Of a DNA stretch of 21,368 bases, positions 389 to 15,700 are shown in pieces. Source of the stretch: a virus. The stretch spans positions 1 to 21,368 of the IMG/VR virus record IMGVR_UViG_3300033155_001206, one strand, 5' to 3'. Numbering within the stretch: position 1 is the first letter of the stretch; every line of letters starts with the position of its first letter. A program made the position numbers and the translations under genes. The notes under the pieces were generated by a model. The model saw only the letters and a list, made by a program, of their open reading frames with translations. It was not told where the DNA came from and searched no databases.

Positions 389-410
389 ACCTTTAACCGG
401 GTCTTTTTTA
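387..410 (+). terminator. Rho-independent terminator of the upstream operon
   Basis: A stem AGACC (387-391) pairs with GGTCT (400-404) across an 8-base loop and is followed by a run of six T ending at 409 (TTTTTTA). It lies after the last small ORF of the upstream operon and directly before the promoter at 448-478, which fits separation of the two transcription units. Confidence 0.7.
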
Positions 411-425
411 TTGCCTAAAACTTAA

Positions 426-441
426 TTTAGATAAATCTAAA
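426..441. promoter_or_regulatory. Operator-like palindrome 1 (distal site of promoter 1)
   Basis: TTTAGATAAATCTAAA is a perfect dyad with 7-base arms (TTTAGAT/ATCTAAA) around AA. It starts exactly 22 bp upstream of a second, related 16-mer at 448-463, two helical turns, so both sites face the same side of the DNA. The same pair recurs at 5892-5929. Regulator binding is inferred from symmetry, spacing and the promoter context. Confidence 0.6.
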
Positions 442-447
442 AATAAA

Positions 448-463
448 TTTGGATTAGTCTAAA
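448..463. promoter_or_regulatory. Operator-like palindrome 2, overlapping the -33 box of promoter 1
   Basis: TTTGGATTAGTCTAAA is an imperfect dyad of the same TTTAGA/TCTAAA type, matching site 1 at 12 of 16 positions and the site at 5892-5907 at 13 of 16. Its first four bases are the TTTG of the -33 element, so a protein bound here would directly contact or block RNA polymerase. The position suggests repression, though recruitment by a bound regulator cannot be excluded. Confidence 0.6.
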
Positions 464-478
464 AATGTATTACCTTTG
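448..478 (+). promoter_or_regulatory. Bacteroidota-type promoter 1 (packaging operon)
   Basis: TTTG at 448-451, a 19-bp spacer, and TACCTTTG at 471-478 exactly match the TTTG-N19-TAnnTTTG consensus of the Bacteroidota primary sigma factor. Transcription should begin near 485, giving an untranslated leader of about 70 nt before the ninG-like gene. It sits just after a terminator and upstream of about 5.3 kb of same-strand genes, so it likely drives ninG through the scaffold gene. Confidence 0.8.
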
Positions 479-483
479 TTGTA

Positions 484-538
484 GGGGTTGTGTTTTATTA
501 TGAATCATAGCCCCCTTTTCTTGCTTTGTGGGGTTGTG
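484..538 (+). repeat. Two copies of GGGGTTGTG in the leader of promoter 1
   Basis: GGGGTTGTG occurs at 484-492, at the expected transcription start, and again at 530-538, just before the ninG-like ATG. A C-rich stretch (CCCCC, 511-515) lies between them and could pair with either copy, so the leader RNA could adopt two alternative hairpins. The repeats are seen; the pairing and any role are inference. Confidence 0.35.
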
Positions 539-556
539 GTTCTGATACGGAACTAA
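500..556 (+). CDS. 18-codon hydrophobic leader ORF, coupled to ninG
   Basis: ATG at 500, about 15 nt after the predicted transcription start, opens the frame MNHSPLFLLCGVVVLIRN, ending with TAA at 554-556. The stop overlaps the ninG-like ATG at 556 by one base (TAATG), the same junction used between many real genes in this window. The peptide is strongly hydrophobic in its middle. It could be a translated leader peptide that couples ribosomes into ninG, or a chance frame in the 5' untranslated region. No family is recognised. Confidence 0.35.
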   Translation: MNHSPLFLLCGVVVLIRN

Positions 557-981
557 TGGAAGCAAAGACCTTAAGAAAATATGACAGCAAGTCAGTGAGT
601 GATCTAATAAAGATCGCAACTAGACACTTCAATAAGTTTATCCGGAACAGAGACAGCAATGAGGGTTGTTTCAAATGCATTAGCTGCAGCAAGGTGAAAC
701 CTAATGAAAAACTCCAGGCTGGACACTTCAGAAGTGCAGGTCATTATCCCTCGGTAAGATTCAACGAAAAAAACGTTCACGGCCAGTGTAAGAGGTGTAA
801 CCTGTTTCTGAGCGGCAATCTAGCTGATTATGCCAAGAACCTAACAGCAAAAATAGGGACAGAAGGAATGCAGGAGATCGAAGATTTAGTAGGAAGGTCA
901 AAGCAACTAGGTTTCAAATGGGATAGAATATCTCTTATCGAAACAATCGAAAAATACAAGAAACTAAATAAGGAACTATGA
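556..981 (+). CDS. ninG: NinG-like recombination protein (HNH-type zinc fold)
   Basis: NinG (Rap) of lambda is a nuclease acting on branched recombination intermediates such as Holliday junctions and D-loops. This 141-residue protein shows the family signature: a helical N-terminus rich in Lys and Arg, a CxxC pair (CFKC, with CISC following) at about residues 36-42, the AGHFRSAGHYPSVRF block with its two histidines, and a second CxxC (CKRC) followed by N, as in an HNH-like treble-clef fold. Lambda NinG is longer (about 204 residues), so this is a compact form. I chose ATG at 556 over TTG at 526 because it makes a TAATG junction with the leader ORF and the conserved part starts soon after. It is the first full-size gene behind promoter 1, so it is transcribed with the packaging genes; processing branched concatemers before packaging is a plausible role. 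Confidence 0.85.
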   Translation: MEAKTLRKYDSKSVSDLIKIATRHFNKFIRNRDSNEGCFKCISCSKVKPNEKLQAGHFRSAGHYPSVRFNEKNVHGQCKRCNLFLSGNLADYAKNLTAKIGTEGMQEIEDLVGRSKQLGFKWDRISLIETIEKYKKLNKEL

Positions 982-1100
982 TCGAATACATCTTAGAATA
1001 CAACATGCAAAATCCATTATGCTCAATGCTTTGGGTAATGTCAATTGTTGGTACAGCAGTATTAATAACACGATCGCTATTTAAGCCTAGAAGTGAGTAA
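978..1100 (+). CDS. Small single-span membrane protein (40 aa)
   Basis: ATG at 978 overlaps the ninG stop (ATGA), and the 40-codon frame ends with TAA at 1098-1100, inside the start of the next gene. The product has a short acidic N-terminus (MIEYILEYNMQ), a hydrophobic stretch of about 20 residues (CSMLWVMSIVGTAVLI, residues 15-30) and a basic end (TRSLFKPRSE). That charge pattern predicts an inner-membrane protein with the C-terminus in the cytoplasm. A small holin or pinholin-like protein or a superinfection-exclusion peptide are possible, but nothing in the sequence decides. It lies between two genes with overlaps on both sides and fills what would otherwise be an odd 110-base gap, which supports it as real. 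Confidence 0.6.
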   Translation: MIEYILEYNMQNPLCSMLWVMSIVGTAVLITRSLFKPRSE

Positions 1101-1365
1101 GAAACGCAAAATAAAAGACGGCTTCTGGTTCAAGGTGGTTAACATCGTTCCTAGAATAGATTCACCCGATCTAGAGCTACCTATTTATTGCGTTGAGGAA
1201 TCAAAAGAAATGGCCTTATACAAATTCAATCTCGCTATAGGTCAGAAGAAGAAATGCGACTACATCGGTGAAGTGAAAAGCGGAATAATCCAATCAACCG
1301 GAGAAAGGTTAGTCATTGGCACTGATAACAAACCAGTTAAAGACTTAGAAGAAAGGAATAATTGA
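1093..1365 (+). CDS. Hypothetical protein (90 aa), GTG start
   Basis: Not recognised. The frame starts with GTG at 1093, overlapping the preceding small membrane protein gene by 8 bases, and its stop overlaps the terminase small subunit ATG (TGATG). The product is soluble and basic, opening with MSKKRKIKDG and containing a Lys-rich turn (GQKKKCDYIG). Predicted strands are suggested by FWFKVVNIV and LPIYCVEE, followed by a helix. There is no visible catalytic motif. Its position directly before the terminase genes suggests a packaging accessory or transcription-related role, but this is context only. The GTG start is the only non-ATG start I accept in the window; the overlap pattern and lack of an early in-frame ATG favour it. 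Confidence 0.65.
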   Translation: MSKKRKIKDGFWFKVVNIVPRIDSPDLELPIYCVEESKEMALYKFNLAIGQKKKCDYIGEVKSGIIQSTGERLVIGTDNKPVKDLEERNN

Positions 1366-1817
1366 TGTCTTATTCAAAAGAGGAAATAGAGTTTTTGTTT
1401 AGTTCCATCTGTAAAAAGATGGGTGAGGAGGGAAGGTCTTTGAGGTCTGTTTTGAGTGAGGAAGGTATGCCGGATAGATCTACATTTTATGAATGGATAA
1501 GAAATGATGATTTAAAATCCGACCATTACGCGCGCGTGAAAGAAGATAGAGCCGACTATATTTTCGAGGATATACTCAATATAGCTGACGAAACCCATAA
1601 CGACAGGAGGGTGAAATCAGATGGAGCAGAGGTTGTTGATCACGAGGCTATCCAAAGGTCTAAATTAAGAGTTGACGCTAGGAAATGGATGTTGAGTAAG
1701 ATGCTGCCTAAAAAGTATGGCGACAAAATCGATGTTACATCTGATGGAGATAAAATCGGAGGGGATAAGTCTATAAACATTAGCCTTGATGGAAAGGACA
1801 TAAACCTTGGTAGCTAA
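1365..1817 (+). CDS. terS: Terminase small subunit
   Basis: The small terminase recognises the packaging site on the concatemeric genome and stimulates the large subunit. This 150-residue protein has the typical plan: an N-terminal helix-turn-helix region (about residues 10-45, including the turn GMPDRSTFYEWIRND), the conserved step where an aromatic-W residue pair ends the recognition helix, followed by YARVKEDRADY and long helices that would oligomerise (about 55-115), and a hydrophilic tail ending GKDINLGS that may contact TerL. The start is ATG at 1365, overlapping the preceding stop by one base; a TTG one codon earlier is also in frame but less likely. It overlaps the large subunit gene by one base (TAATG). 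The neighbour is an unmistakable large terminase, which strongly supports the call. Confidence 0.88.
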   Translation: MSYSKEEIEFLFSSICKKMGEEGRSLRSVLSEEGMPDRSTFYEWIRNDDLKSDHYARVKEDRADYIFEDILNIADETHNDRRVKSDGAEVVDHEAIQRSKLRVDARKWMLSKMLPKKYGDKIDVTSDGDKIGGDKSINISLDGKDINLGS

Positions 1818-3127
1818 TGAACTTCGATCCTAATCCTTTGTTTTACCAAATGTGTAACATATTCCAAGAGAATTACACTCCAGACAATAAGGTAGTTATA
1901 TGTAATGAAGGAGGAACAAGAAGCTCAAAGACTTGGGATTTATTCCATTGGATTGTTGCTTTCTGTGACCACAACAGGAATCAAGAAAATGAGATTTACA
2001 TACTCAGAGATACCTTAACTAATTGCAAGGATAAAACGTTTAGAGATTTTAAGAAGTGCATGAAGCTTATTGGTTACTCATTTAAATATTTCTCAGAGCA
2101 TCAAAAGCCTTATGTAAACATATTAGGTAACCACGTTTTTTTTAGAGGTTTAGATGACGAGAAGAACGCCGAAGGATACCCAAGTGACATTTTGTTTATC
2201 AATGAAGCCTTAGAAACTCAAAAGAGTAAAGTTGACGGATTAAAAATGAGATGCAGAAAGGCTATGATTCTAGATTGGAACCCAAAGTTTACTGATCATT
2301 GGTGCTTTGATTTAGAGGGTCAACCAAACACGTTTTTCACTAGAACCAATTACAAGAACAATAAGCACCTTCAAGGGTCAATTGTCCGAGAGATAGAGAG
2401 TTACGAGCCTTGGCTTCCTGGTAGTTATGAAATAATTGATGGAACTGAACTTCACTATAACGGTCAATTAATCGATGCTAAAAATCAACCTCCTCCACAC
2501 CCAGCAAACATTAATAACAATACGGCTGATGAGTTTCGATGGAAGGTGTACGGCCTTGGTCTAAGAGGAGCAATGAAGGGTGTAATTTTCAACAATGTCC
2601 GATACATCGATGAGTTCCCAAACATAGCTCATACCTACGGGCTAGATTTCGGGTTTACCAATGACCCTACTGCATTAGTGAGGTATTCTGAAGATTCAAC
2701 AGACATTTACTTAGAGCTCCTTTGCTACCAACCAATCGAAACACCTCAAGAGATTGATTCCTACATGCAGGAGATTGATATTGAAAGAAACGTACCTATT
2801 ACTGCGGATAGTTCAGATAAATACACAAGCGAGCACAGAGGGAGTGTTGAAATGGTAGAGAGTCTTTATGAATTAGGCTGGACTATCGATAAAGTAAGCA
2901 AAAGAAAGAACGTAATGTTCTGGCTTCTTTCAATGAAGAATAAGAGGATAAATATTGTAAAAAATCAATTCTACCCTCAAGCAAAAAAAGAACAACAAAA
3001 CTACATTTTCAAGGAAATTAACGGAATAGCTATCAATCAACCTGTCGATAAGTTCAATCACTTTTGGGATGCTGCTCGATACGCTCACATGGCATATAAT
3101 CAAGAAACACAAGAAATATACGCATGA
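1817..3127 (+). CDS. terL: Terminase large subunit (ATPase-nuclease)
   Basis: This is the packaging motor: it cuts concatemeric DNA and pumps it into the prohead through the portal. In 436 residues it shows an N-terminal ATPase with Walker A GGTRSSKT (32-39) and Walker B LFINEA (126-131, catalytic Glu130), and a C-terminal RNase H-like nuclease with its acidic residues at D277 (YGLDFGFTNDPTALV), D331 (ITADSSDKY) and D418 (HFWDAARYA). This order and length match terminases of the PBSX/Terminase_3 type. All key residues appear intact. The gene overlaps the small subunit upstream and the portal downstream (ATGA), the usual terS-terL-portal order. From motifs alone I cannot tell cos from pac packaging. 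Confidence 0.96.
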   Translation: MNFDPNPLFYQMCNIFQENYTPDNKVVICNEGGTRSSKTWDLFHWIVAFCDHNRNQENEIYILRDTLTNCKDKTFRDFKKCMKLIGYSFKYFSEHQKPYVNILGNHVFFRGLDDEKNAEGYPSDILFINEALETQKSKVDGLKMRCRKAMILDWNPKFTDHWCFDLEGQPNTFFTRTNYKNNKHLQGSIVREIESYEPWLPGSYEIIDGTELHYNGQLIDAKNQPPPHPANINNNTADEFRWKVYGLGLRGAMKGVIFNNVRYIDEFPNIAHTYGLDFGFTNDPTALVRYSEDSTDIYLELLCYQPIETPQEIDSYMQEIDIERNVPITADSSDKYTSEHRGSVEMVESLYELGWTIDKVSKRKNVMFWLLSMKNKRINIVKNQFYPQAKKEQQNYIFKEINGIAINQPVDKFNHFWDAARYAHMAYNQETQEIYA

Positions 3128-4764
3128 CACTAACAGACGACGAAGCAATTGACTATATAAAATCCAATCAGTCAATCAAACCAAAATGGAACGAAGCTAG
3201 ATCTCAATCGAAAGAGCTTTTTGCTTTGATTGAAGGTTTAGATTACTCTGAGGAGCTAATTAAAAGAATAGAATTTGTCGAGACTGAGGGGAGAGCTAAG
3301 TCGAGGAAGAAGTATAGCCGCCCTATTATTGATTTATTTGAAAGACTTTCGAAGCCTATAACCAATGTATTTACAGCGACAGGAGGGGAACTAAGATACA
3401 ATATCGACAACGACGAAACGAGGAAAAAATTCATATCCGAAATCACTAATGTCAGAGACAATAAGTCGCTTCGAAAATATCTTCAAAACACTTGGACTAG
3501 GATGTATGCGAGCGATCCAAACGGGGTTATATTCTTAGAATACAACACTAATGAAGAAAAAGGACCAGTTAAAGTTTGGCCTACTTACAAGAGTGCTTTA
3601 TCGATTAGAAGTTACGTACCTAACGGGCAATTATTGGAAGTGTTACTATTTGAACCCAAAAAGATTGACGATAAAAATTACTGGCGTATTGTTGATGATA
3701 ATCAAGATAGAACTTTTAGGCAGGAAGGCGATGAGTTTATTCTAGAAGAAGATAGGTCTTTTATACATCCATTCGGAAAGGTTCCTGGCGTGATTGCGTC
3801 TGACCTTAATAACCTAGGGTGCCCAATTAAATTATCAGGATTCAACAAGATAATACCGTTATCTAAGGAGCTTGCTGCTGATAGCTCAGTGAAGACGATA
3901 TACAAAAGGATCCAAGGAAACCCTATCCATTGGAGATATGCGATAAGATGTAAGGACTGTTCGGGTCTTGGTAAGGATGGTAATAAAATTTGTAGTAGTT
4001 GCTCTGGAAAAGGAGTGATGAATAATGGGGATGTTACAGACATGATTCAGCTCCCTATACCAAGGCCTGACCACAAGGTTCTAGCTCCAGATGTTGCTGG
4101 GTACGTTTCCCCAGACCTTGAGTTTTTAGAGTTTGCAACAAAGGAGATAAAAGAGCTTGAAATTACTGCTCACGAAACTCACTGGGGAACACTATTCGGA
4201 GCCAGAGAGGAAATTGTAAAAAGCAAAACAGCAACGGAAATCAGGTTTAGTCAGCAACCAATGGAGCAAAAGCTAAATGAATATGCTGATGTCGCTGAAT
4301 GGATAGAAAAGCAATTATCTGAATGGGTGTTGAATTTCTATGATAGCTCAAAAAGCAGGGAGGAGTCCAAGATCATGATACACTACGGAAGAAGATATAT
4401 CATGGAATCACCAGATGCTATTTTAATCAGGTACGATGAAGCAAGAAAAGAACAACAAAACAACGTTGTGCTTGATAGGCTATTTAGAGAGTACTTAACA
4501 GCTAAATATAGAAACAATCCGACAGACCTAAAGATTAACATCAAGAAGTCAGATGTCGAGCCTTACATCCACATGTCTACGGATGATATCATTACTGTAT
4601 TCGGAGTGGAGGAAGCTCAACGTAAATCACTTTTTGAGAAATGGTGGAAAACGCTAGACGAAAAACAAAAAGAAGACAAAGATTCGAGTGTTCTTGAATC
4701 AGAATTCAACACCTGGTTCGATCAAAACAAAATAGCAAATCAAAATCAAAATCAAAATGAATAA
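3124..4764 (+). CDS. Portal protein with DnaJ-like zinc motif
   Basis: The portal forms the dodecameric ring at one capsid vertex through which DNA enters and leaves and to which the tail attaches. Support is position directly after terL, length (546 aa, within the usual 400-600), and the helical segment after ETHWGTLFGAREE with KTATEIRFSQQPMEQKL (about residues 345-385), typical of portal stem and wing regions. Unusually, residues 276-297 hold two CxxCxGxG units (CKDCSGLG, then CSSCSGKG; Cys276, 279, 290, 293), the pattern of the DnaJ zinc-binding region, presumably one four-cysteine zinc site in a loop. The C-terminus ends in a short NQ repeat (NQNQNQNE) coded by a hexanucleotide repeat. 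The gene overlaps terL by 4 bases and the next gene by 8. The portal call rests on context and shape, not on a matched domain. Confidence 0.85.
   Translation: MTLTDDEAIDYIKSNQSIKPKWNEARSQSKELFALIEGLDYSEELIKRIEFVETEGRAKSRKKYSRPIIDLFERLSKPITNVFTATGGELRYNIDNDETRKKFISEITNVRDNKSLRKYLQNTWTRMYASDPNGVIFLEYNTNEEKGPVKVWPTYKSALSIRSYVPNGQLLEVLLFEPKKIDDKNYWRIVDDNQDRTFRQEGDEFILEEDRSFIHPFGKVPGVIASDLNNLGCPIKLSGFNKIIPLSKELAADSSVKTIYKRIQGNPIHWRYAIRCKDCSGLGKDGNKICSSCSGKGVMNNGDVTDMIQLPIPRPDHKVLAPDVAGYVSPDLEFLEFATKEIKELEITAHETHWGTLFGAREEIVKSKTATEIRFSQQPMEQKLNEYADVAEWIEKQLSEWVLNFYDSSKSREESKIMIHYGRRYIMESPDAILIRYDEARKEQQNNVVLDRLFREYLTAKYRNNPTDLKINIKKSDVEPYIHMSTDDIITVFGVEEAQRKSLFEKWWKTLDEKQKEDKDSSVLESEFNTWFDQNKIANQNQNQNE
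4736..4758 (+). repeat. CAAAAT hexanucleotide repeat at the portal 3' end
   Basis: Three CAAAAT units (4741-4758) follow a degenerate CAAAT at 4736. They encode the portal's C-terminal QN repeat, and the last unit supplies the A and T of the downstream gene's ATG at 4757. Copy-number change would add or remove two residues without shifting frame. Confidence 0.7.
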
Positions 4765-5089
4765 AAATGAAATCGTAGTATGTTCTAAGCATTCAATGCT
4801 AAGAAAAGGAACAAAATTCAGTGAGTCGCACACCGAAGAGTTAAGGACAGGGCTAACAATACCCAGATATATGGTGGATGATTTCAATAGTCAAAGTCAA
4901 AATTCCGGCATTATATATAAGATCGATGAAGAGGCAACGGAAAAATGGGCAGAAGAAAACAACAAGCTAATTGAAGAGCGAAAAGAGAACGAAAATGCGT
5001 CAAAGCTTGTATCTGATGCATTGGGAGACTTAGCGAAAAAAGCTGTTGCTCCAAAGAAAAAAACACCGCAAAAAAGTTCATCAAAATAA
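4757..5089 (+). CDS. Hypothetical protein between portal and scaffold (110 aa)
   Basis: Not recognised. The N-terminal half (residues 1-55) looks like a small folded domain with a Cys-His pair (CSKHSMLRKG); the second half is a charged helix (about 57-95, EEATEKWAEENNKLIEERK) and ends in a Lys-rich tail (KKAVAPKKKTPQKSSSK). It overlaps the portal gene by 8 bases and lies 6 bases before the scaffold-like gene, so it is translated with them. Its place between portal and scaffold, together with the helical and basic tail, would suit a minor head protein or a DNA-contacting head-assembly factor, but this is inference only. Confidence 0.75.
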   Translation: MNKNEIVVCSKHSMLRKGTKFSESHTEELRTGLTIPRYMVDDFNSQSQNSGIIYKIDEEATEKWAEENNKLIEERKENENASKLVSDALGDLAKKAVAPKKKTPQKSSSK

Positions 5090-5095
5090 ACACAA

Positions 5096-5887
5096 ATGGC
5101 AATTGAAAATTTATCAGCGATAGAGAAATCGTTAGGACTAGAGGAGGGAACTCTCCAAAGCGCAATTGACAACGAAGAATCCGTGTCAGTTGAAATTCCG
5201 GAACTGGAAATATTTACCAAAGACGACTTTAACAAAAGGATTGAAAATGTAAAGTCAGAAGCCGGCAAAGCTGCGGTTGAGATTGCAGTAAAAAAATCTA
5301 GAAACGACTTGGGGTTAGATTTCGAAGGTAAAACGATGTCGAATCTACTGGAAGCGCATTCAAAGAAAGTATTGGGCGAAGCTAAAATTGAACCAAATAA
5401 GAAGATTGAAGAGCTTACCAAGGATAATGAACTGCTTAAAACCAATCTTTCCACAATCCAGCAAGAGTTGCAAACCACCAAAGATCAGTGGAGTCAGGAG
5501 AAAAGTTCTGCTAAAAGAGACGCCTTAATTTTATCATCAATTCCAGAGAATACCATAATCCCAAAACAAGATATTCTATCGATATTCAAATCTACGCACG
5601 AAGTAGAGTTTACGGAAGGTGGTGGTCACCAGGTGAAAAAGAATGGGCAAGTGCAAAAAAACAGCACGAATCTTGACCCTCTTTCAGTAAGTGATTACAT
5701 GTCTAACTTTTCCACACCGTATCTAAAAGCAGCCTCTGGAGGTGCAGGAGCAGGAGATGAAACAGGTAATCCAAAGAAAGGATCATTTGAAGCATTTGAA
5801 AAAGAGGCAGAAGATGCTGGGTGGTCAATCGAAGAAAGAAACAACATTATGAGTGATCGGATAAAAGCCGGCACATTAGAAGTATAA
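5096..5887 (+). CDS. Scaffold-like head assembly protein
   Basis: Scaffolding proteins line the prohead during assembly and are then expelled or cleaved. This 263-residue protein has the expected features: it is highly charged, with an acidic helical N-terminus, a long predicted coiled coil at about residues 95-145 (KIEELTKDNELLK, LSTIQQELQTT), a compact segment (IPKQDILSIFK), a Gly-Ala linker (AASGGAGAGDE, about 212-222) and a charged helical C-terminus that could bind the shell. It lies immediately before the major capsid gene, the standard place. There is no Ser or His protease motif I can identify, so a protease-scaffold fusion is unlikely. It is the last gene before the second promoter and the hairpin at 5889-5932. 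Assignment is from composition and order. Confidence 0.72.
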   Translation: MAIENLSAIEKSLGLEEGTLQSAIDNEESVSVEIPELEIFTKDDFNKRIENVKSEAGKAAVEIAVKKSRNDLGLDFEGKTMSNLLEAHSKKVLGEAKIEPNKKIEELTKDNELLKTNLSTIQQELQTTKDQWSQEKSSAKRDALILSSIPENTIIPKQDILSIFKSTHEVEFTEGGGHQVKKNGQVQKNSTNLDPLSVSDYMSNFSTPYLKAASGGAGAGDETGNPKKGSFEAFEKEAEDAGWSIEERNNIMSDRIKAGTLEV

Positions 5888-5891
5888 TAAT

Positions 5892-5907: not shown

Positions 5908-5913
5908 TAATAT

Positions 5914-5929: not shown

Positions 5930-5944
5930 ATTTTACTATATTTG
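5914..5944 (+). promoter_or_regulatory. Bacteroidota-type promoter 2 (capsid and tail operon)
   Basis: TATATTTG at 5937-5944 fits the TAnnTTTG -7 box, and TTTA at 5914-5917, 19 bp upstream, is a near match to the TTTG -33 box. Transcription should start near 5951, about 95 nt before the capsid ATG. This is the only promoter-like site I find before the long run of head and tail genes, and a dedicated promoter for the capsid gene suits the large amount of that protein needed. Confidence 0.72.
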
Positions 5945-5950
5945 AATTAA

Positions 5951-6045: not shown

Positions 6046-7071
6046 ATGCCGAATAGAACGGATGCTAATTTAGTGAAGGCTCAAGCTAAACTTCTTGCTA
6101 AGTTTCAGTCTTCCGAATTACGCTTTAGATTTCCAGCTACGTACTTAGCTTTCAAAACAAGTACACCAATCATGTTCCCAAACTACGTCGAATTAAGAGG
6201 TAGAGAAGATAGGGTTATTGAAACAAACTACAAAGCAAGAACCTCAAGAGCATTGGGTTTAGGTGGTCGTACTCACAACCATACAGGACCTAAAGGGGAT
6301 ACTGCCTTAATGACCCCTGCCTGGAGTACTTACGACGATAAATTCAATATCTCGTTGAAGCAAGCTGATAATAGCTTGTACAATCTTCAAGAACAACTTC
6401 AAAGTGAATTAGAAAATATCGTAGCTAATTTTGCTGAAGGATACGAAACGCTAGCTACCAACTACGTGTTTGCCAATCGTTCAGGAGTAAATATTGACAC
6501 ATCTGGAGAGGGAATTTTCAATGGAGCAAACCAATCTTTTGAGATTACAGAGGCTACTGAAGGTGATCGATCTATCCAGATTACTAAATCAGTAATGCAT
6601 TCCAATAAGTACACTGGAGGTTATGTTGTGTTTTGCGACACTAAGTCCTTCAATAAGTTTGAAGCGGATGCAGCTCAAGGTGCTGGAAACTCAACTAACC
6701 TATCTTTCCAATTCAACAATGTCACCTATGTTCATTCTGTTGAATTAGGGGCTTTAGCTGCTGGCTTAGGTTATACAAAAGGTTTTTGGGTGGCAGTTGA
6801 GCCTGGAACTTTCGGCGTTCTTCCATGGGTTCCTAAGCAGAACCGAATGGGGGTAAACACTAAAGTAAACCAATACAGTTTGATTAGCAATCCTGTTGAC
6901 GGAGAGTCTTACGCTGTTCATACCTATGAGGATCGAGCAGATGACACTGCTAACAACGGATATACTCAGGATGTTGTTACTCAATATGAAATCTCTCAAG
7001 ACATTTCATTTGTACACGCACCACTTACTACTGCAAACGAAACAACATTCCAGGCATTCAGCCTAGTTTAA
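6046..7071 (+). CDS. Major capsid protein
   Basis: This 341-residue protein is the best candidate for the main shell subunit: it directly follows the scaffold-like gene, has its own promoter and leader, and has the size and mixed alpha-beta composition of HK97-fold capsid proteins. A long helix-like region (about residues 108-145, SLKQADNSLYNLQEQLQ through ANFAEGYETLATNYV) would be the spine helix, followed by beta-rich peripheral and axial domains. The N-terminal arm is basic and has no obvious cleavage site. Codon use looks more regular than in neighbouring genes, as expected for a highly expressed gene. The HK97 fold itself is inferred, since no diagnostic motif exists. The stop overlaps the next ATG by one base. 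Confidence 0.82.
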   Translation: MPNRTDANLVKAQAKLLAKFQSSELRFRFPATYLAFKTSTPIMFPNYVELRGREDRVIETNYKARTSRALGLGGRTHNHTGPKGDTALMTPAWSTYDDKFNISLKQADNSLYNLQEQLQSELENIVANFAEGYETLATNYVFANRSGVNIDTSGEGIFNGANQSFEITEATEGDRSIQITKSVMHSNKYTGGYVVFCDTKSFNKFEADAAQGAGNSTNLSFQFNNVTYVHSVELGALAAGLGYTKGFWVAVEPGTFGVLPWVPKQNRMGVNTKVNQYSLISNPVDGESYAVHTYEDRADDTANNGYTQDVVTQYEISQDISFVHAPLTTANETTFQAFSLV

Positions 7072-8141
7072 TGTTCGTTAAACAGAAAATAGAAACAGGT
7101 TTATTTGGGTCGGTAGGTTTTAGACAGCCTATCGACCCGAGTTACCCTATTTTGGATTCAGGTAACATCGAGTCTAGATCTGGGTATTATGTGAACGATA
7201 ATCCTTTTGCGTCTGTCGAGAATTTAAAGGATACTCAAGACTACAAGGACGCCGATGACTCTCAGTTTAACACCTACTTATCGAACATTCAAACATCAAG
7301 TATCGCGAATGTATGTAATCAGGTTTTCAATGATTACGACTTTATCGATTCTCAGGTTCTATACAAAAACGCAATGAATAAGGTTAATGTAGAGACCTTA
7401 CCAGACGGGTTTGTTGGCTACAAAATAAGAATCACAGACGAGAAAAGCGTTGCGTTTAAGATTAGCAAGGTATTTCTTGATTTTCAAGGAACCGGAGATG
7501 TTGAACTACTGTTGTTTAACTCCAATAAACTAACCCCATTATTTAGTGAAACAATTACAATATCCTCAGATCATCAAGTAGAGGAGCTGAATTGGGTCAT
7601 TGATGACTCAAACGACACCTATAAAGGCGAGTATTACCTTGGGTATAACACTCAAGGATTAACTGTTTCGCCATTCAAAAGAGACTACAACAATTCCGAT
7701 ATCATGAGTTCGGTAACTCATTTAGGGATTGAAAAAATATCCGTACCCAATCACAATACAAACACATTGTTTGATCTAACCAAGCAATCAGGACTAAGTC
7801 AAACAACCGGAATAAACCCCTACATACAAGTCTATGATGATTTCACTGATGTAATCATTCAGAATCAAAACTTATTCAGTAGAGCAATTTACCTGGATAT
7901 GTGTGTATCTGCAATTACCCGGTGTATTAACTCAAAGCGATCTAATTACAATGAAAGAAACGCAGATCGTGACTTGAAGCGAATGATTGCCGAGGTTGAA
8001 GGGCTGAACACCGAAGGAGGGTTTAAGATAAAAGGACTTAAGCCACAGTTAAAGTATGAAATTTCACAGATAAGGGAAGAATTAAAAAAACTCAAGGAGG
8101 GTTTTTTCATTGATGGACTAGAGGTAATTACATTGGATTGA
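7071..8141 (+). CDS. Putative head-associated structural protein (356 aa)
   Basis: Not recognised as a named family. It is coupled to the capsid gene (TAATG) and to the following gene (TGATG). The N-terminal 110 residues are polar and mostly helical or coil; residues about 115-200 look like a beta-sandwich (repeating pattern VAFKISKVFLDFQG, DVELLLFNSN, EYYLGYNTQG) of the kind found in carbohydrate-binding or jelly-roll modules; the C-terminus is a charged helix (YEISQIREELKKLKEG). The position next to the capsid gene suggests a head-completion, decoration or connector protein. A beta-sandwich inserted in a connector would be displayed outside the virion, so a decoration role is at least as likely. 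Confidence 0.65.
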   Translation: MFVKQKIETGLFGSVGFRQPIDPSYPILDSGNIESRSGYYVNDNPFASVENLKDTQDYKDADDSQFNTYLSNIQTSSIANVCNQVFNDYDFIDSQVLYKNAMNKVNVETLPDGFVGYKIRITDEKSVAFKISKVFLDFQGTGDVELLLFNSNKLTPLFSETITISSDHQVEELNWVIDDSNDTYKGEYYLGYNTQGLTVSPFKRDYNNSDIMSSVTHLGIEKISVPNHNTNTLFDLTKQSGLSQTTGINPYIQVYDDFTDVIIQNQNLFSRAIYLDMCVSAITRCINSKRSNYNERNADRDLKRMIAEVEGLNTEGGFKIKGLKPQLKYEISQIREELKKLKEGFFIDGLEVITLD

Positions 8142-8656
8142 TGGCATTGATTTTAAAAGATAACCCCGTTGGAGTCGATGCTAAAATCGATGTAATTCAA
8201 AGAGTTCTATTTGACAACCTGCAATGGACCAATTATGAAAGCTACCACAGAGCATACATAAACCCTAAAGATGGGAAAAAGATACCTGAAGTATATGTCG
8301 GTAACGGTGAGTATCAAGAGGTGTTTTACAATGATGAATTTACAGCATCATCTCACTTCATAGTTCAAAACGACAGACGCTTTGGAGAGCTTTATCAAGC
8401 CGAAGTATCGTTGATATTTCACGCGAATCTCGAAGAATTGTATCCGTCAATTTTACATAGAGCTGATGAGGAGATGCATAGACAGATATCCTTAATCCTT
8501 GAAGATAATCAATCCATTGCTGAATTAAATAGACTGGTTACTGGAGTTGATTCAGTTTACAGGGGTCTAGACGTGTCTCGAGTTACATTCACAGACATGA
8601 GTGAAAAACACGTGGTAAGATTCGACTTAACTATTAACTATCAATACATCTGCTAA
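8141..8656 (+). CDS. Putative neck or tail-completion protein (171 aa)
   Basis: Not recognised with certainty. ATG at 8141 overlaps the previous stop by one base and is preferred to the TTG one codon earlier. The protein opens with a helix (AKIDVIQRVLFDNL), has an aromatic stretch (WTNYESYHRAYINP), a beta-rich centre (AEVSLIFHANLEEL), a helix (ADEEMHRQISLILEDN) and a final strand pair (HVVRFDLTINYQYIC). Small alpha-beta proteins of 130-180 residues between capsid and tail tube genes are typically head-closure or tail-terminator proteins, and the fold order seen here would fit a tail terminator. This is inferred from size, order and predicted secondary structure only. Confidence 0.6.
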   Translation: MALILKDNPVGVDAKIDVIQRVLFDNLQWTNYESYHRAYINPKDGKKIPEVYVGNGEYQEVFYNDEFTASSHFIVQNDRRFGELYQAEVSLIFHANLEELYPSILHRADEEMHRQISLILEDNQSIAELNRLVTGVDSVYRGLDVSRVTFTDMSEKHVVRFDLTINYQYIC

Positions 8657-9633
8657 TGACGAACACGATAGTAATAACAAAAAAACAAAACGACACAATT
8701 CTAGTAACTAGAGGTTCTTCATTTAGAAAGCAGCTAAGTCCTAGTTTGACAGTTTATGAAACTCCAAAAGGTGTTGATATAAGAGATTGCGACAGAAGCG
8801 CTGAAAGCTTTGATTTCGATCAGGTTTTAGAGGTTGTAAGGAAGGACGGGACAGTAGTTCCGATTAACGACAAAGCAACCCTTTTCGACGAATTATCCAC
8901 TTACTTTTTTTTTAAACCAGCTGCATTTGGCGAGCCGCTGGTTCCTAGCACTAACGTTGTAAACGATTTTGCGAGTCTTCCACCATTCGGTGATCATTTA
9001 GGGGAATACTGGCAGGTTGATAATGCTACAGGCTGGAGGTTATTACTTACATATAAAGCTTCTGGAGTTTACAAAGCAGAAGTATCTGGGTGGCGTAAAA
9101 TAAACGACGCTCAAGCCTTGTTTGCTGACAATCAATTCCTAGTTCAAAATTCAATCGATCCTACTAAAGGTCTCCGGTTTAGTGTTTCTTCCATTGGAAC
9201 AGGAGCCCAACAAACAGCTTCTTGGAGGAATCAAAGCGGAATTGTGGCGTTTCTATCTGATCTTATTTACGGGTCTAACAAGAATTACCAAGAGAATTTA
9301 ACCGAAAACTCCACTAATGGAGGGGTTCCTCTACTTCAAGTCTCTGCATCAAATATCGGGCTACCTAACGGGAGGTATGAATTTAAGTCATACTGTGAAC
9401 TAAACAACTCAACAATCAATGGAACCGCAGTAGCAAGATCTACTGTAAAAGGTACAATAGTATCCGAGTCACCAATAGAACCCAAAGACAACGATAACTA
9501 CTACCCCATAATGACATTTGGAGAGGTTGATGTACTTGACGGGAACATGAACGTCGATTTAGAATTCTTCAATCTAGGATCTGGAACGGCTAGTTGCAGA
9601 AATGCTAAAGTGAAATACAAGAGAATCGCTTAA
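8656..9633 (+). CDS. Fiber-like virion protein (325 aa)
   Basis: Residues about 160-205 carry the recurrent phage-fiber segment, here NSIDPTKGLRFSVSSIGTG followed by a spaced WRNQSGIVAFLSD, close to the widely seen pattern N-x2-DxTKxLxF...TG...GT that precedes fiber shafts and heads. Before it, residues about 100-150 (PPFGDHLGEYWQVDNATGWRL, given here in shortened form as GEYWQVDNATGW) look like a small beta domain common in virion surface proteins. The C-terminal 110 residues are beta-rich (GRYEFKSYCELN, MNVDLEFFNLGSG) and could be a trimeric head. The gene is coupled at both ends (TAATG). It lies among connector genes, well away from the tail-tip genes, so it may form a neck or head fiber that binds cells or surfaces. 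Function at this site is inferred. Confidence 0.65.
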   Translation: MTNTIVITKKQNDTILVTRGSSFRKQLSPSLTVYETPKGVDIRDCDRSAESFDFDQVLEVVRKDGTVVPINDKATLFDELSTYFFFKPAAFGEPLVPSTNVVNDFASLPPFGDHLGEYWQVDNATGWRLLLTYKASGVYKAEVSGWRKINDAQALFADNQFLVQNSIDPTKGLRFSVSSIGTGAQQTASWRNQSGIVAFLSDLIYGSNKNYQENLTENSTNGGVPLLQVSASNIGLPNGRYEFKSYCELNNSTINGTAVARSTVKGTIVSESPIEPKDNDNYYPIMTFGEVDVLDGNMNVDLEFFNLGSGTASCRNAKVKYKRIA

Positions 9634-10535
9634 TGGAATTGACTTACAACATATCGCAGACGGTTAATTCTAAGGTGAATATTGATAGACTTCAGTACGA
9701 TGTTGAGGATATAAGCTCAGACGTAACTCATATAAGTTCAGTTAATGGTGTTATCACTATTTATTCGTCTACCGAACTAAGTCAAGAACAAGTTTCATCT
9801 ATTGGTCAAGCTGTATCTAGTCACGAAGGAAGCCCAATTCCGAAGCATCGGATCGAACAAGATACAGAAGAAAATAAGGGATTCTTAAGTATTAATTACA
9901 AAACCGAATTAAAAGACGGTATATCCTATCACCCGGTTTACACAATTAATGATGATGGGCTCTTGGAGAAGACAGAATATTTCAGAGGATTTGTTGATGA
10001 GAACAATAAAGGAGAATTAGTTCTGCAGGTAGAAGAGGTATACGATGTCAATGAAGATGTTTCGATTCCAAAATCAGCCAGAGAAGTAAATTCAAGGGAG
10101 AAAACTTGGAAGCATTACCGGACGGATGGAGTTTTAGACGAAAAGAAAAAGAAGAGGAGGCCAAAAAAATACGACACCAGGGAAAAACGACACAAAGAAG
10201 GGGTTAGAAGACGAGCAAACCTCGAAGAGCAATTGATTGACCGGGTGTCACTAGCTGGGTCTTTATCTGGGGCTTTTGTTGGGTCAAATAGTGATGAGAT
10301 TAAATCAGACGCATACAATAAGCTAACAACCCTGCAGGAAACACATAGCTCATCTTTTTCAGCTTGGAGAAACAGTGGAAGAGGGTCTATTTATAATGAT
10401 CTATCAAACGAATCTATTTCGTGGGTCAATATTGTTGTTCCTGACACCCCATCAACCCAGGTAAAGTGTCCCTGGATTATTGGAATGACATTAAAGGGGT
10501 ATATGGTGGAAAAGCTAAAAGGAGAAATTAAATAA
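9633..10535 (+). CDS. Putative virion protein with basic region (300 aa)
   Basis: Not recognised as a whole. Residues about 37-68 (GVITIYSSTELSQEQVSSIG, then a helix into SSHEGSP) resemble a short strand-helix module present in many phage minor structural proteins, where an ITI/VTV strand is followed by LS..E...L...V..H. Residues about 169-195 are extremely basic (EKKKKRRPKKYD, KRHKEGVRRR), suggesting contact with DNA or with an acidic partner. The rest is beta-rich with a helical stretch near 215-245. It is coupled to the preceding fiber-like gene, so the two may form one appendage, this one as the anchor. It is followed by the 36-base A-rich gap before the tail tube gene. Confidence 0.6.
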   Translation: MELTYNISQTVNSKVNIDRLQYDVEDISSDVTHISSVNGVITIYSSTELSQEQVSSIGQAVSSHEGSPIPKHRIEQDTEENKGFLSINYKTELKDGISYHPVYTINDDGLLEKTEYFRGFVDENNKGELVLQVEEVYDVNEDVSIPKSAREVNSREKTWKHYRTDGVLDEKKKKRRPKKYDTREKRHKEGVRRRANLEEQLIDRVSLAGSLSGAFVGSNSDEIKSDAYNKLTTLQETHSSSFSAWRNSGRGSIYNDLSNESISWVNIVVPDTPSTQVKCPWIIGMTLKGYMVEKLKGEIK

Positions 10536-10571
10536 CAAACAATTTTCAATAACAAATAAAAACAGATAAAA
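10536..10571 (+). promoter_or_regulatory. A-rich translation leader of the tail tube gene
   Basis: The only real gap between genes in the tail module. It is almost pure A with scattered T and C (aacaaataaaaacagataaaa before the ATG, in part), the kind of unstructured leader that gives strong translation in Bacteroidota. I see no TAnnTTTG box in it, so it is probably a translation enhancer and not a promoter, consistent with a need for many tail tube copies. Confidence 0.5.
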
Positions 10572-11537
10572 ATGGCAACAGCTTGCACATGTAATGTAGG
10601 ATTAGGGAACACAGGTTCTCCAAACTGCATACCGTTAATGGACGCTGCATTGTTCTTCATTGCAGTGCCTTATTTTAGAGCCGACGGGTCGGTGAATGGG
10701 ATCGACTTATCAACTCTGCCGGGAGGGAAATTAAACCAAACCTTTTTGGACGAACAAATTCGAAACGCTGATGATCAGGAAAGATGGAGAATTCTTCCTA
10801 GAATGAAAAACGTAACCGACGAAAGAGGAGACGATATTACAGAGGATTTCGATGATCAAACATCGGTATTTATCCAGCAAGGAATTCGATCAGTAAGCGC
10901 CTTAATGCTTAAGCAAGGACCAACGTTACTTGGTATTCTTGAAGGCTTTAGATGTGCTTCTGTTGGATTGTTCGTGGTTGATAAAAGCTTCAATTTAATT
11001 GGAAATTGCTCACAAGACGGATTCTTGAATCCTATCAGAGTTTCAGACGAGACATGGTCTCCAATGTTGATTAAAACAACCGACACTACCAAACAGAAGA
11101 TTCAATTGAATTTCCAATGGGACATTTCAGAACAAGACAAAGACTTGGCTCAAATTGGGGCGTCCGACATCACAGCAAACTTATCGAATGCTAGAGCAAT
11201 GATTGACGGTGTAGTTTCATTAGCAGTTAATTCTGCAACACAAGATTCAATCACGCTGACATTGAATACCCTTTATGGAGATAAATTAAATCCAATTCCA
11301 GCTGCGGGAATGACTAATGTTAGTGATTGGAGCCTGTTTAATAGAACTACTTTATCTCCAATGGCTGTAACGTCTGTTAGCGTTGCAGGTGACAACTCTT
11401 ACACTTTGAATTTCATTGCTGAAAATATCGGGGATGTAGTTGAGATTGAAAGCGGGCAAGTACCTGGGACAATTGTTTCGTCGATCTACAATAAGATATA
11501 CGATATAACTAAGTATTCACACACACTTACAGCGTAA
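10572..11537 (+). CDS. Putative major tail tube protein
   Basis: A 321-residue beta-rich protein preceded by the strongest-looking translation leader in the tail module and located before the tape measure, the usual site of the tail tube gene. The N-terminal part has clustered cysteines (ATACTCN, GSPNC) and an odd hydrophobic stretch (MDAALFFIAVPYF, about residues 24-36). The centre contains tube-like alternating strands (KQKIQLNFQWDI, SDITANLSNARAMIDG), and the C-terminal 100 residues (SATQDSITLTLNTLYG onward) look like an Ig-like or added beta domain that would stick out from the tube. It is longer than simple tube proteins (150-250), in line with an extra domain. The stop overlaps the next ATG. 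The assignment is from order, leader and predicted fold. Confidence 0.68.
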   Translation: MATACTCNVGLGNTGSPNCIPLMDAALFFIAVPYFRADGSVNGIDLSTLPGGKLNQTFLDEQIRNADDQERWRILPRMKNVTDERGDDITEDFDDQTSVFIQQGIRSVSALMLKQGPTLLGILEGFRCASVGLFVVDKSFNLIGNCSQDGFLNPIRVSDETWSPMLIKTTDTTKQKIQLNFQWDISEQDKDLAQIGASDITANLSNARAMIDGVVSLAVNSATQDSITLTLNTLYGDKLNPIPAAGMTNVSDWSLFNRTTLSPMAVTSVSVAGDNSYTLNFIAENIGDVVEIESGQVPGTIVSSIYNKIYDITKYSHTLTA

Positions 11538-11749
11538 TGAGTAAGATACAAACAGAAAAGACAGTGGGTAATTTATCTATTCGAACTGAAGCCCTCGCTA
11601 AGATGACTGAAGCAACTTTTAGGGAGAAATTTTCAGGAAAAGTAGAGAACATTAATGCTGTCTGGGAGGAGTTAAAACCCTACGCTAAAAAAACAACAAA
11701 AAAAGGGACAAACGAGTCTCGCGCTAAGAAAGGTGACACCCCCTCTTAA
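11537..11749 (+). CDS. Small protein after the tail tube gene (70 aa), chaperone position
   Basis: Not recognised. The gene is coupled to the tail tube gene (TAATG). The product has a short folded-looking part (residues 1-47) and a basic Lys-Thr-rich tail (YAKKTTKKGTNESRAKKG). It occupies the place of the first tail assembly chaperone of siphoviruses, which coats the tape measure before tube assembly, but it is shorter than most. The tail is coded by two A runs separated by ACAAC, which could cause slippage, but neither shifted frame reaches the next gene. The stop codon lies inside the loop of the hairpin at 11739-11758. Alternatively it could be a tail tube accessory protein. Confidence 0.65.
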   Translation: MSKIQTEKTVGNLSIRTEALAKMTEATFREKFSGKVENINAVWEELKPYAKKTTKKGTNESRAKKGDTPS

Positions 11750-11758
11750 TTGAGGGGG
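11739..11758 (+). terminator. GC-rich hairpin across the stop codon of the 70-aa gene
   Basis: CCCCCTC (11739-11745) pairs perfectly with GAGGGGG (11752-11758) around the loop TTAATT, which contains the TAA stop of the preceding gene. Only a short T stretch follows (CTTTG), so it is not a strong intrinsic terminator. It is the most stable small hairpin visible in an otherwise AT-rich operon and could reduce read-through or protect the 3' end of the abundant tail tube message. Confidence 0.5.
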
Positions 11759-11772
11759 CTTTGCCCGTTGTT

Positions 11773-12261
11773 ATGAAGTTCTTTCAGCGGTTAAGAGATT
11801 TAGCAGACCGGATAATTGAGCTAGATGTTGATCTATTAGTAGCGAATATTATGCGAAAGCCAGAAGTTCAGGAGTTTATACTGGATATGGTTAAAAACGA
11901 TCAACTGTTCAATGAAGGAGAGAGCTATTTAAGCGTAAAGCTCGATACTATTGGAGGAGAATATTCCGATGCGACTATTGATGGAATATTCGGAGTCTTT
12001 GAAGGTAAGAAACAGAGGGGGCTTCCATTTGACAGGGTTACTCTATTCAATGAAGGAGACTTTTACGATAGCTTCGAAATTGATATTGGGTTAAAAACTT
12101 GGCAGTTTGATGCTGATTACGATAAAGACGGGACCGACCTCCGAAAGCGATGGGGGGATGAGATTGTAGGATTGAATCAAGAAAATTTACAGAGACTAAT
12201 CAATGAACTTAGGGAGAAAATCATCGAAGGACTACGAAGAGAATTCGGAATTGCAGCCTAA
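11773..12261 (+). CDS. Hypothetical tail-module protein (162 aa)
   Basis: Not assigned to a known family. The start is ATG at 11773 (MKFFQRLRD), preferred to an in-frame TTG at 11761 that lies too close to the hairpin. The protein is alpha-beta: an N-terminal helix (LADRIIELDVDLLVANIM), a middle section with NEGESYLSVKLDTIGG and VTLFNEGDFYDSFEIDIG, and a helical C-terminus (LQRLINELREKIIEGLRR). The repeated NEG...Y/F pattern suggests two similar beta turns. It lies between the tail tube and the tape measure, so a tail completion or chaperone role is likely from order. It is not fused to the preceding gene by any obvious slippery site. Its 3' end overlaps the next gene by 59 bases. Confidence 0.7.
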   Translation: MKFFQRLRDLADRIIELDVDLLVANIMRKPEVQEFILDMVKNDQLFNEGESYLSVKLDTIGGEYSDATIDGIFGVFEGKKQRGLPFDRVTLFNEGDFYDSFEIDIGLKTWQFDADYDKDGTDLRKRWGDEIVGLNQENLQRLINELREKIIEGLRREFGIAA

Positions 12262-12727
12262 ATGTTTCGAATCAATCGATGATTTGCCAATTCTAAATTG
12301 GTTTGAAATTATCAATAAAGATGATTATTCCTGGTTATTTATTGATCGTCCAATAAATCCCTGCTCTCCACTGAATTCTAAGGTATTATTCAGGTCTTTA
12401 TACAATCAGTATCTAGAAAGGTTTGTTATTGGAAAAAGCAATGATATCAAGGAGAAGGAAATTGAAATTGCTCTTTTAAAATCTGAGTTATTACTCACAA
12501 AGAACTCCTATCTAAAAACACTCATTCAAATAGAACAACTTGAATTGGATTCCCTGCAAAATTCACTCGCCGACACGAAATCCACTTTAGATGAGGATAT
12601 TTTAGCTATCGAGCTTGGGCTAAATAGACCGGTCCTTGACCCCAGAACCCTGCCTACATCAAAATTCTACATCTATGTTGAAGGGCTGAAAAAGAAAGTT
12701 GAACAAGTAAAAAAGGGAGCTGCTTAA
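12203..12727 (+). CDS. Putative tape-measure chaperone (174 aa), long overlap
   Basis: Not recognised by domain. The first ATG in frame is at 12203, making an unusually long 59-base overlap with the previous gene; no later in-frame ATG occurs before the well-formed segment ESIDDLPILNWFEIINKDDY (from about residue 24), so either this start or a rare non-ATG start is used. The region after that is a long charged coiled coil (about residues 70-125, KEKEIEIALLKSELLLTKN). The stop directly abuts the tape measure ATG. Small helical proteins in this place in siphoviruses are tail assembly chaperones that bind the tape measure, and this is the best guess here. Confidence 0.68.
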   Translation: MNLGRKSSKDYEENSELQPKCFESIDDLPILNWFEIINKDDYSWLFIDRPINPCSPLNSKVLFRSLYNQYLERFVIGKSNDIKEKEIEIALLKSELLLTKNSYLKTLIQIEQLELDSLQNSLADTKSTLDEDILAIELGLNRPVLDPRTLPTSKFYIYVEGLKKKVEQVKKGAA

Positions 12728-15700
12728 ATGGGTCAAGTAATACAAACATCCGACGCAGTTGCAAAGGATTTCCTACAGCAACCCACTGAGCAGGCGATCA
12801 AGTTAAAAAAGGCTATTGACGGTCTTGAAGATTCACTTGAGGACACTCTTAAATTAACCAGTCAATTTTTAAGTGAAATTCAAAAGCAAGGCGGACCAAA
12901 AACCGTTAAGCAGTTTGAGCAAGTTGAAATGGCTGTTAAAGCGATTAATGACGCTGAACAGCAATCTATTAAAATTGCAAATCTTAGAGAGAAAATCAAT
13001 AAGAAGCTCGATGATCAGCTTAAGGATAGAATTGATGGAACCGAAGAATTGACAGATCTTCAAAAGAAGCAAATCCGACTAGAAAAAACACTTACCAATT
13101 CAATTGACGATCAAGCTGTTGCAGTTGAAGAATTAAATGTTTTAGCATCAGAGCAGCGTAAGATAAACAAACAACTTGCCAAGGAAAAACTAGGACTTGT
13201 TACTGTTTACGAGAGGGAGAGTAAGCGATTAAATGAACTAAGAAAACAATACAAGTCTTTAGCTCTTGAGGGGAGGGAAAATACTCAGGTAGCGAAGGAT
13301 TTGAAGGTTGAAATTGATCAGCTTGATGAATCCTTGAAAGCAGTTGATGCATCCGTAGGTCAAAATCAGCGTAATGTTGGGAATTACACAGAAGGAGTAA
13401 AGGAGGCCATTGAATCAACGGGTGCTTTTGATGAAGTTCTTGGAAGCCTATCTAAGATTCAAAACATTGTAGCTAAATTCACCAACATAGCTGGGGAAGA
13501 GACTGATGATTTCGCCGATAAAACAGAGGGAGCTACAAGAAGTCAATCTGGACTTGTTAGGGGGTTAGGGTTTACTAGAAAGGGACTAAAAAGACTGAAA
13601 GTAGCTATTGCAGCAAGCGGAATTGGCGCTCTTCTATTAGCTGTAGCATCCCTTGGAAGTTTCTTTTCTAAAAGCGCATCTGGATCTAGGAAATTCTCCA
13701 AAGTACTTGGGGGATTGGGTGCAGTGGTTAGTGTATTATCTGGTAGATTGGTTTTATTAGGCGGTGCTGTTGTGGATGTGTTTCAAGCTTTCGGGTTTCA
13801 ACTCAAAGCGGTTAGCAGGCTATTAAAAGGTGATTTTAGCGGCGCAGCAGATGCCGCTACAAAAGCCTTAAATCAACAAGCGTCTGCGTCTAGCAGAATG
13901 GAGAGAGCTCTTGGAGGTATAGCTAAAGCAGCTTCAGAAGCTTACGATAGAGGGTCTCAGCTTGCTGATTTAGAATTTATAAATAAAGAGAACACTAGAA
14001 ACATTAAACTGCAAGTCGCTGAGTTAAATAAGCTTGCTGAGATTCAGCAATCAATTGCAGACGATGCAACTAGATCCTTTAATCAAAGAGAGTCCGCAGG
14101 GAAGAAAGCAGCTAAAGCATCTGAGGACGCTGCAAAAAAACAATTAGAACTAGCTCTAGCGGAAGAAGAGATTGCGAAGAGAAGGTTTGAAATTGCTACC
14201 GTTGAAGGGCAGATAGATGAAGAGGCTGCCGACGCTCTAAATGAATCAGTGATTCAGAGAATCGAAGCTGAAAAAGAACTAAGTCTAGCAGTCGAGGAGA
14301 ACGTTAGATTCAGAAGAGAGTTAAAACAGGATGAGCTAGAAAAGAATCTTGACATTTTAATAGACGGGTTTGATAATCAAAAAACTATTAATGAAAGACT
14401 GATAGCTGATGATAGAACAACATTGTTGCAAAAAATTGATCTTTTCAGGAAGACAGAAGATGAAGCTCAAAAATCATTTAATACTCAGGTAGAAACAATA
14501 CAGCAGTTTACTAGAAAAAGAATTGATGCAAATGAATTGTTAGCTACTTCCGATGCTGTGTTGTTAAATCAGAGGATAAGAAGCCTTGGGTTGTCTGAGA
14601 TTATTGAAGGTAGACTTCTTGAGGTTATTCGGGAAAGAAGAACGGCACTACAAGATATCTCCGACCTAGAAAGAGATCTGCAAGCTATTAGAGAAGAATC
14701 CGCAAAAGAAGCACGCGCGACCCAGGAGACAATAAATGAAACCGAACAAGAGCAATTTAAAAGACAAATTGAGCTTGCGGAAGATGTTTCTTCAAAGGAA
14801 ATTGAAATTCTAAAAGATAAAGCAAAGCAATCCGGAGATGTGTCTCAGCAGGAGTTAGCTCAACTACAAGCTGATTTAGATGCGGAATTTGAGCTTAGGA
14901 AAAACGCTTTAATTGCACAAGCAGAGTTCGAGCTTTCCAATGAAGAGCTGACCGCAGAGGAAAAAGAGCTGATCAATGAAAAACTACAGAATGATATTGC
15001 AAGACTCGACCAGCAAAGAGTTGATCAAGAAGCTCAAACATTAGATGAGATTGAGAAGCTTAACGAAGCTTCAAGACAAAGAATACAAAAAGCCAACAGG
15101 GAAGCTATAGTTGCATTTGCTGAGGAGCAGTCTCAGGCATTGATTGAAGAATCACAAAAAACCATTGAAGCAATTGAGAACGAAATAAACACGTCGGTAC
15201 AAGAAGCTGATGCTCTTGCTAATGCTGCAGCTCAAGGTCAAGTGGATGCTCAAAAGTCAATTGCTGAAGAGAAAAAGAGACAGAATGACCTAGAAGCTCA
15301 AAGGCTTAACGAACAACAAAAGCAACAAAGAATAGAAGCAACGCTTGCTGCATTGAAGCTAATTGCCGCTAGAGCGGAACAAGGAGATGCTGACCTAGCC
15401 TTACCTCAAGCCTTAACTGATATATCAACCACTTTAGGATTCATTAGGGGTCTTGATTTCTTCTATGAAGGAACTGAAAACACCGGGACCGTATCCAATC
15501 CATTGGACTCCAAGGGTGGTAGATTAGCAGTGTTACATGATAACGAACGAGTAATGACTCAAAACCAAAATCAAAAGGTTGGAACGCTTACTAATAACGA
15601 GCTTGCAGATATTGCATTTGATTACAATAATGGAAACTTAGTCCCATTCGATTACGGATTATTGCAGCTAAATGGATTAACACAGTCGGACTTAAATATC

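Follow-up and report, generated by a model that had tools for sequence, protein, structure and literature searches.

Predicted tandem DtxR/MntR operators at the late promoters of a Bacteroidota phage

Results

IMGVR_UViG_3300033155_001206 is a viral fragment of 21,368 bases, which was analyzed over its whole length and is referred to here as the window. It encodes TerS, TerL, a portal protein, a capsid-type protein, and a tape measure protein, all on the + strand. Intergenic DNA makes up 2.3% of the window, and both palindrome pairs described below fall inside that share, one in each of the two main intergenic gaps (301–526 and 5887–6046). We refer to the corresponding promoters as P1 and P2 (Table 1). 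The P2 region begins right 3′ of a stop codon, ahead of the capsid-tail genes, and its operon runs to the end of the fragment. An Rfam search of the window returned no match, and no sigma-70-type promoter was found in P1. The same sites are present in two near-identical contigs, 3300033388_001420 and 3300033144_003827.

Table 1. Operons, terminator, and predicted promoter elements of the window
Feature	Position	Strand	Remarks
Intrinsic terminator stem-loop	387..404	+	T tail reaches about 412; closes the preceding operon shortly 5′ of P1
Weak third MntR-type site TTTTTTATTGCCTAAA	404..419	.	6.6 bits, rank 14 of 21,353 positions; one good half-site
P1 distal MntR-type box TTTAGATAAATCTAAA	426..441	.	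20.9 bits; 45 bp 5′ of −7 box; letter-identical sites in host genomes
P1 proximal MntR-type box TTTGGATTAGTCTAAA	448..463	.	17.8 bits; 23 bp 5′ of −7 box; overlaps −33 TTG
P1 −7 box TACCTTTG	471..478	+	Bacteroidota TAnnTTTG type
P1 operon	526..5887	+	NinG-like nuclease 526–981, ORF 1093–1365, TerS 1362–1817, TerL 1817–3127; 3′ part: portal 3124–4764, ORF 4757–5089, ORF 5096–5887
P2 distal MntR-type box TTTAGGGTAGTCTAAA	5892..5907	.	21.0 bits; 45 bp 5′ of −7 box
P2 proximal MntR-type box TTTAGATTGCCCTAAA	5914..5929	.	16.7 bits; 23 bp 5′ of −7 box; over −33 region
P2 −7 box TATATTTG	5937..5944	+	TAnnTTTG type
P2 operon	6046..21368	+	Capsid-type virion protein 6046–7071, more head/tail genes, tape measure 12728–15919

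Both promoters consist of a distal palindrome, a proximal palindrome, and a −7 box, with start-to-start steps of 22 and 23 bp that are identical at P1 and P2; all six elements given in a preliminary description of this DNA were confirmed. The palindromes share the motif TTTAGR-N4-YCTAAA, and in each promoter two helical turns separate the distal from the proximal box, which places both on one DNA face. Between P1 and P2, identity amounts to 12 of 16 positions for both palindromes and 6 of 8 for the −7 box, and, at chance-like levels, to 2 of 6 and 4 of 7 in the spacers and 8–10 of 30 in the flanks. Spacing kept amid diverged letters is conserved geometry and not recent duplication, which supports the earlier proposal of selection for binding geometry. 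P1 has the elements of a Bacteroidota housekeeping promoter, with TTG at 449–451 followed after 19 bp by TACCTTTG at 471. P2 has the −7 box, but TTA in place of TTG at −33. At P1, the weak site at 404 lies one more 22-bp step upstream of the 426 site; P2 has no counterpart of this third site.

The Bacteroidota SOS motif reads CTAA-N5-TTAG or GGA-N5-TCC (PMC8565304). An SOS (LexA-like) identity of the boxes was rejected, as the sites read TTTAG-N6-CTAAA and CTAA-N5-TTAG is absent from the boxes and the intervening gaps.

Within 21.4 kb, these four sites are the only places at most one mismatch from TTTAGANNNNTCTAAA. Scored with a matrix from host mntR promoters, they occupy ranks 1–4 at 16.7–21.0 bits, with the next best place at 11.0, in a comparison that is partly circular because the matrix sites were chosen with a phage-derived pattern. 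Simulated windows gave a mean best score of 10.8 bits and 0.007 matches at 16.7 bits or above, and none of 150 simulated windows contained a 22/23-spaced pair, even at 12 bits. Equally good sites at random places, which according to the preliminary description would count against a common regulator, are thus not seen in the window.

The four sites look like operators of a host metalloregulator of the DtxR/MntR family, an identity that the preliminary description had not considered. An IMG/VR scan for tandem copies with gaps of 0–24 bp peaked at 21–22 bp start to start. When the 22-bp tandem was sought among 84,980 prokaryote species, with no −7 box required, 13 loci were found. Their Pfam-confirmed neighbors include a DtxR/MntR regulator together with an NRAMP transporter (L127) and a DtxR/MntR regulator alone (L120); further neighbors are ZnuA-type metal-binding/uptake proteins (L121, L126) and a TonB-dependent receptor (L122). 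The complete architecture of two boxes and a −7 box occurred in no bacterial genome among the 84,980, because the second boxes of hosts are weak, and its only occurrences were in near-identical contigs of this phage. The Bacteroidia genome that contains L122 carries the pattern 16 times versus once for the reversed control; one of its sites, directly 5′ of an NRAMP gene, is accompanied by a weaker site 22 bp off and by a TATATTTG box. A Cytophagales genome (G028) showed no excess of boxes (10 versus 10 for the control), and L130 was therefore left out.

A DtxR-family metal-binding domain is encoded in 69 of 80 Bacteroidia genomes, and the exact motif occurs 18 times in 30 DtxR/MntR loci, compared to 0 for control patterns. 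A motif-free search for perfect 5+5 dyads, which is free of the circularity of the matrix, placed TTTAG-N6-CTAAA at the top, in 15 of 26 mntR upstream regions from Bacteroidia versus at most 4 in shuffles. Spacing tests score geometry, a property absent from the matrix. In a first set of 19 mntR promoters, the best second site lay at ±22 in 15 (mean of shuffles, 0.80). In a hold-out of 40 later-fetched mntR loci, half of the genes had no strong box; the 20 with a strong box included 11 with a partner at ±22, where shuffles had a mean of 0.75 and a maximum of 4, and another 4 with a partner at ±23. NRAMP loci, which partly belong to the same operons as the mntR set, had a box in 23 of 30 cases, 17 of these with a partner at ±22. 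When up to two mismatches were allowed, 77 of 395 Bacteroidia genomes had the tandem, and about 20 of the pairs adjoin an NRAMP or mntR gene when coordinates are compared by eye.

Distances from the host box to TAnnTTTG form clusters at 21–26 and 41–47, where the phage distances are 23 and 45. In hosts, the strong box can be the proximal or the distal one, its partner usually being weaker, whereas the phage has strong boxes in both places. Gene-family enrichment, a host-like score, and the 22-bp tandem with a fixed −7 distance all agree with membership among DtxR/MntR operators, and the identity of the phage sites as MntR-type operators is well supported by these sequence comparisons. The preliminary description had proposed that one regulator acts on both the packaging and the capsid-tail operons, and this gains support from the host mntR promoters, which share the 22-bp step and the −7 distances.

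Three other phage groups have related boxes at their late promoters, ahead of terminase, portal, and tail/head operons. An IMG/VR scan for a strong box 21–25 bp before TAnnTTTG gave 88 matches versus 36 for a reversed control; most of the 88 lie within genes or are duplicates, and the intergenic cases alone were used. In L308, L313, and L358, TTTAGATTAGTCTAAA is intergenic, 24–25 bp before a −7 box, and directly 5′ of a TerS-like ORF, for which PHROG gave no match, followed by TerL and portal. In L327, TTTAGACGAGTCTAAA stands exactly 23 bp before a −7 box, ahead of TerS and TerL. The TerL of L313 has no similarity to that of the window, and the TerL of L327 is distant (23%). Within the L313 TerL family, only the three closest members of 80 have the box.

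A scan for the distal place identified the G441–G448 group, which has 1–3 boxes per contig, mostly 42–46 bp before a −7 box. These boxes lie upstream of the portal gene (L613) and of a tail operon (tape measure, head maturation protease, virion protein), and also 5′ of other late-region genes without a PHROG match. Alignment of the tail-type promoters of this group shows that the distal box, a TTTGG...CTAAA proximal box, and TATATTTG are kept and that the upstream region has diverged. With 68% identity between the portal proteins of two members, this conservation spans real distance. Promoters of the group also have a TTGCCTAAAA half-site one step 5′ of the box, similar to the weak 404 site of P1.

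In the portal promoter of the same group (L613, 12896–12950; L616, 12519–12575), the MntR-type box is separated from the −7 box by a terminator hairpin, ATAGCCC...GGGGCTAT, which places the start of the promoter inside the terminator tail. The stretch from the terminator to the first box, TTTTTTATTGCCTAAAA...AATTTAG, is nearly alike in the window (386–441) and in L616 (about 1215–1265), and this likeness to an otherwise unrelated G441 contig hints at exchange of terminator–promoter modules between phages.

Conservation in relatives, the lack of which the preliminary description would count against its proposal, holds in part: it fails in the closest TerL relatives, and related boxes do recur at the late promoters of the three other groups. 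The TerL relatives of the window (L007–L043) and the published phages LS06-2018-MD05, Nekkels_1, and P12002L gave nothing beyond weak or within-gene matches. A search of 395 Bacteroidia genomes for prophages with the window's TerL, made without a positive control, found none. The patchy distribution, with TerL relatives lacking boxes and three members of the L313 family having them, suggests rapid gain and loss or travel with a promoter module. By TerL, the closest annotated phage is OP947161.1 (L223), "Rhodobacteraceae phage LS06-2018-MD05", at 56.5%; its host label may be wrong, as several other annotated relatives infect Bacteroidota.

Tandem MntR-like boxes in a geometry unlike that of P1 and P2 were seen in L053, L060, L071, L088, and L106 and were not counted as support. 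L071 has five boxes at 10335–10438 in exact 22-bp steps (10335, 10357, 10379, 10401, 10423) and three further boxes at 10537–10606, and this ladder is not at a late-gene TAnnTTTG promoter. L106 has three strong boxes at 1392–1472 (17.6–23.1 bits, spaced 33 and 32 bp) 5′ of a small packaging-like ORF and TerL, with the nearest −7 box in the opposite direction. Arrays of TTTAGAANNTTCTAAA-like palindromes with 18- and 21-bp steps, possibly coding, occur in L049 (11839–11932) and L050 (9737–9830), both from one metagenome.

The distribution of boxes also bears on the protein that would bind them. An autoregulated phage repressor is expected to carry boxes at its own gene, and host MntR is not. Three contigs of near-complete size (G443, G444, and G447; 44–47 kb) have zero-mismatch boxes exclusively at structural-region promoters and none at a regulator gene, so that an autoregulated gene of the regulator is not apparent there. 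Among the phages with boxes, none has one at a recognized repressor gene in the stretches read. The DtxR C-terminal domain (PF02742) was found in 0 of 37 viral records and the N-terminal domain (PF01325) in 0 of 14 others; 50,697 phage records gave 9 DtxR-family matches, all in unannotated records and possibly host DNA. We infer that the binding protein would be the host's own MntR. Alternatively, a phage-encoded regulator, such as an XRE-type or unrecognized winged-helix protein encoded beyond the fragment, might have evolved recognition of the same palindrome and could operate a phage-internal late switch. Much of the genome, probably a large part, lies outside the fragment (including the early region that a comparison with CI/XRE operators would involve), temperate phages usually have operators of their own, and L327 carries an XRE-type repressor gene away from its boxes. 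However, such a protein would need a target that agrees with the host mntR box in sequence, in the 22-bp step, and in the distance to the −7 box, and neither the 51 viral records searched for DtxR-family domains nor the box placement in G443, G444, and G447 speaks for such a regulator. We therefore judge a phage-encoded regulator unlikely.

Discussion

Overall, P1 and P2 are probably late promoters of a Bacteroidota phage under predicted tandem DtxR/MntR operators, at which a host metalloregulator would act as a repressor while metal is plentiful. The metal-loaded regulator would bind on one DNA face as two dimers or as two pairs of dimers, and the proximal one would cover the −33 element and spacer and thereby block RNA polymerase. 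The packaging and structural operons would stay off for as long as enough metal-bound regulator is present; release could follow from metal shortage, from loss or inactivation of the regulator, or from replicated phage boxes exceeding the regulator supply. Repression is expected because the geometry parallels that of host mntR/mntH promoters, and the overlap of the proximal site with −33 (the TTG of P1) points to repression and not to a dedicated late activator. We infer repression and its relief from this comparison, as well as the cooperativity and the single late switch. Binding by related proteins has been described: Porphyromonas gingivalis MntR binds its own transporter promoter with an affinity that Mn raises (PMC4805248), and SloR, of the DtxR family, binds cooperatively to adjacent palindromes and blocks the −35 element (PMC12096823).

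A further-reaching form of the repression reading, tentative and on balance somewhat unlikely, is that several unrelated Bacteroidota phages ceded late control to the host Mn sensor, the boxes being a replication-coupled timer without a phage late regulator. Strong tandem boxes would come to outnumber MntR, so that packaging, head, and tail genes would turn on together, with host manganese uptake derepressed alongside them. If this is true, lysis would be timed by the cell's metal status.

MntR could instead activate P1 and P2, in which case late genes would be favored under plentiful metal. Bacillus subtilis MntR activates at the mneP promoter, which provides a precedent, and the lack of TTG at −33 of P2 could mean a need for help. 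Cooperative binding of B. subtilis MntR at mneP is among the work cited in PMC12096823. Activation is nevertheless doubtful for P1 and P2, since their geometry is that of the host mntR/mntH promoters, where MntR repression is expected, and since −33 and the spacer lie under the proximal site in both. It is very improbable that replicated phage DNA serves as a decoy that titrates host MntR and derepresses Mn uptake with little effect on phage promoters: two strong sites are commoner in phage than in host pairs, and the viral contig L071 has its five-box 22-bp ladder, but each pair sits exactly on a promoter at a fixed −7 distance, which a decoy would not need.

Bacteroidota phages are abundant in gut and water, and the regulation of their late genes is largely unknown. 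On the repressor reading, late genes have a concrete control element that recurs in several phage groups. Virion production would then be gated by a metalloregulator of the host, and the timing of multiplication of such phages could depend on metal supply. For the Bacteroidota MntR regulon, the analysis also gives an operator code made up of a 16-bp box, a 22-bp tandem step, and distances of about 23 and 45 bp to −7; we found no earlier account of this code in the literature searched.

The Bacteroidota mntR/mntH (NRAMP) promoters have the same 16-bp palindrome in a 22-bp tandem about 23 and 45 bp from TAnnTTTG. In contrast to these promoters, the phage boxes lie at packaging and structural operons and are both strong, where host pairs usually include one weak box. 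Phage promoters can also be under the host SOS repressor LexA, as in GIL01. Such phages similarly leave gene timing to a host stress sensor, but the signal there is DNA damage, not metal, and the SOS motif differs from the phage boxes. The SloR-SRE system of Streptococcus mutans mntH/sloABC resembles the arrangement predicted for P1 and P2 in its DtxR-family protein, several adjacent palindromes, and cooperative block of −35, and differs in its palindrome and in its place on a bacterial chromosome without phage genes (PMC12096823). In corynephage beta, the prophage-borne tox gene is repressed by host DtxR, and other genes of the phage show high-iron induction, not DtxR repression (PMC13001254). 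As is predicted for P1 and P2, a phage-carried gene is thereby under a host DtxR-family metalloregulator, but tox is a cargo gene, whereas late operons in another phylum are concerned here. In an incomplete search of the literature, we found no phage with MntR-type operators at its packaging and structural operons. Control of a phage gene by a host DtxR-family repressor is thus known from tox, and its predicted extension to late operons is what is new here.
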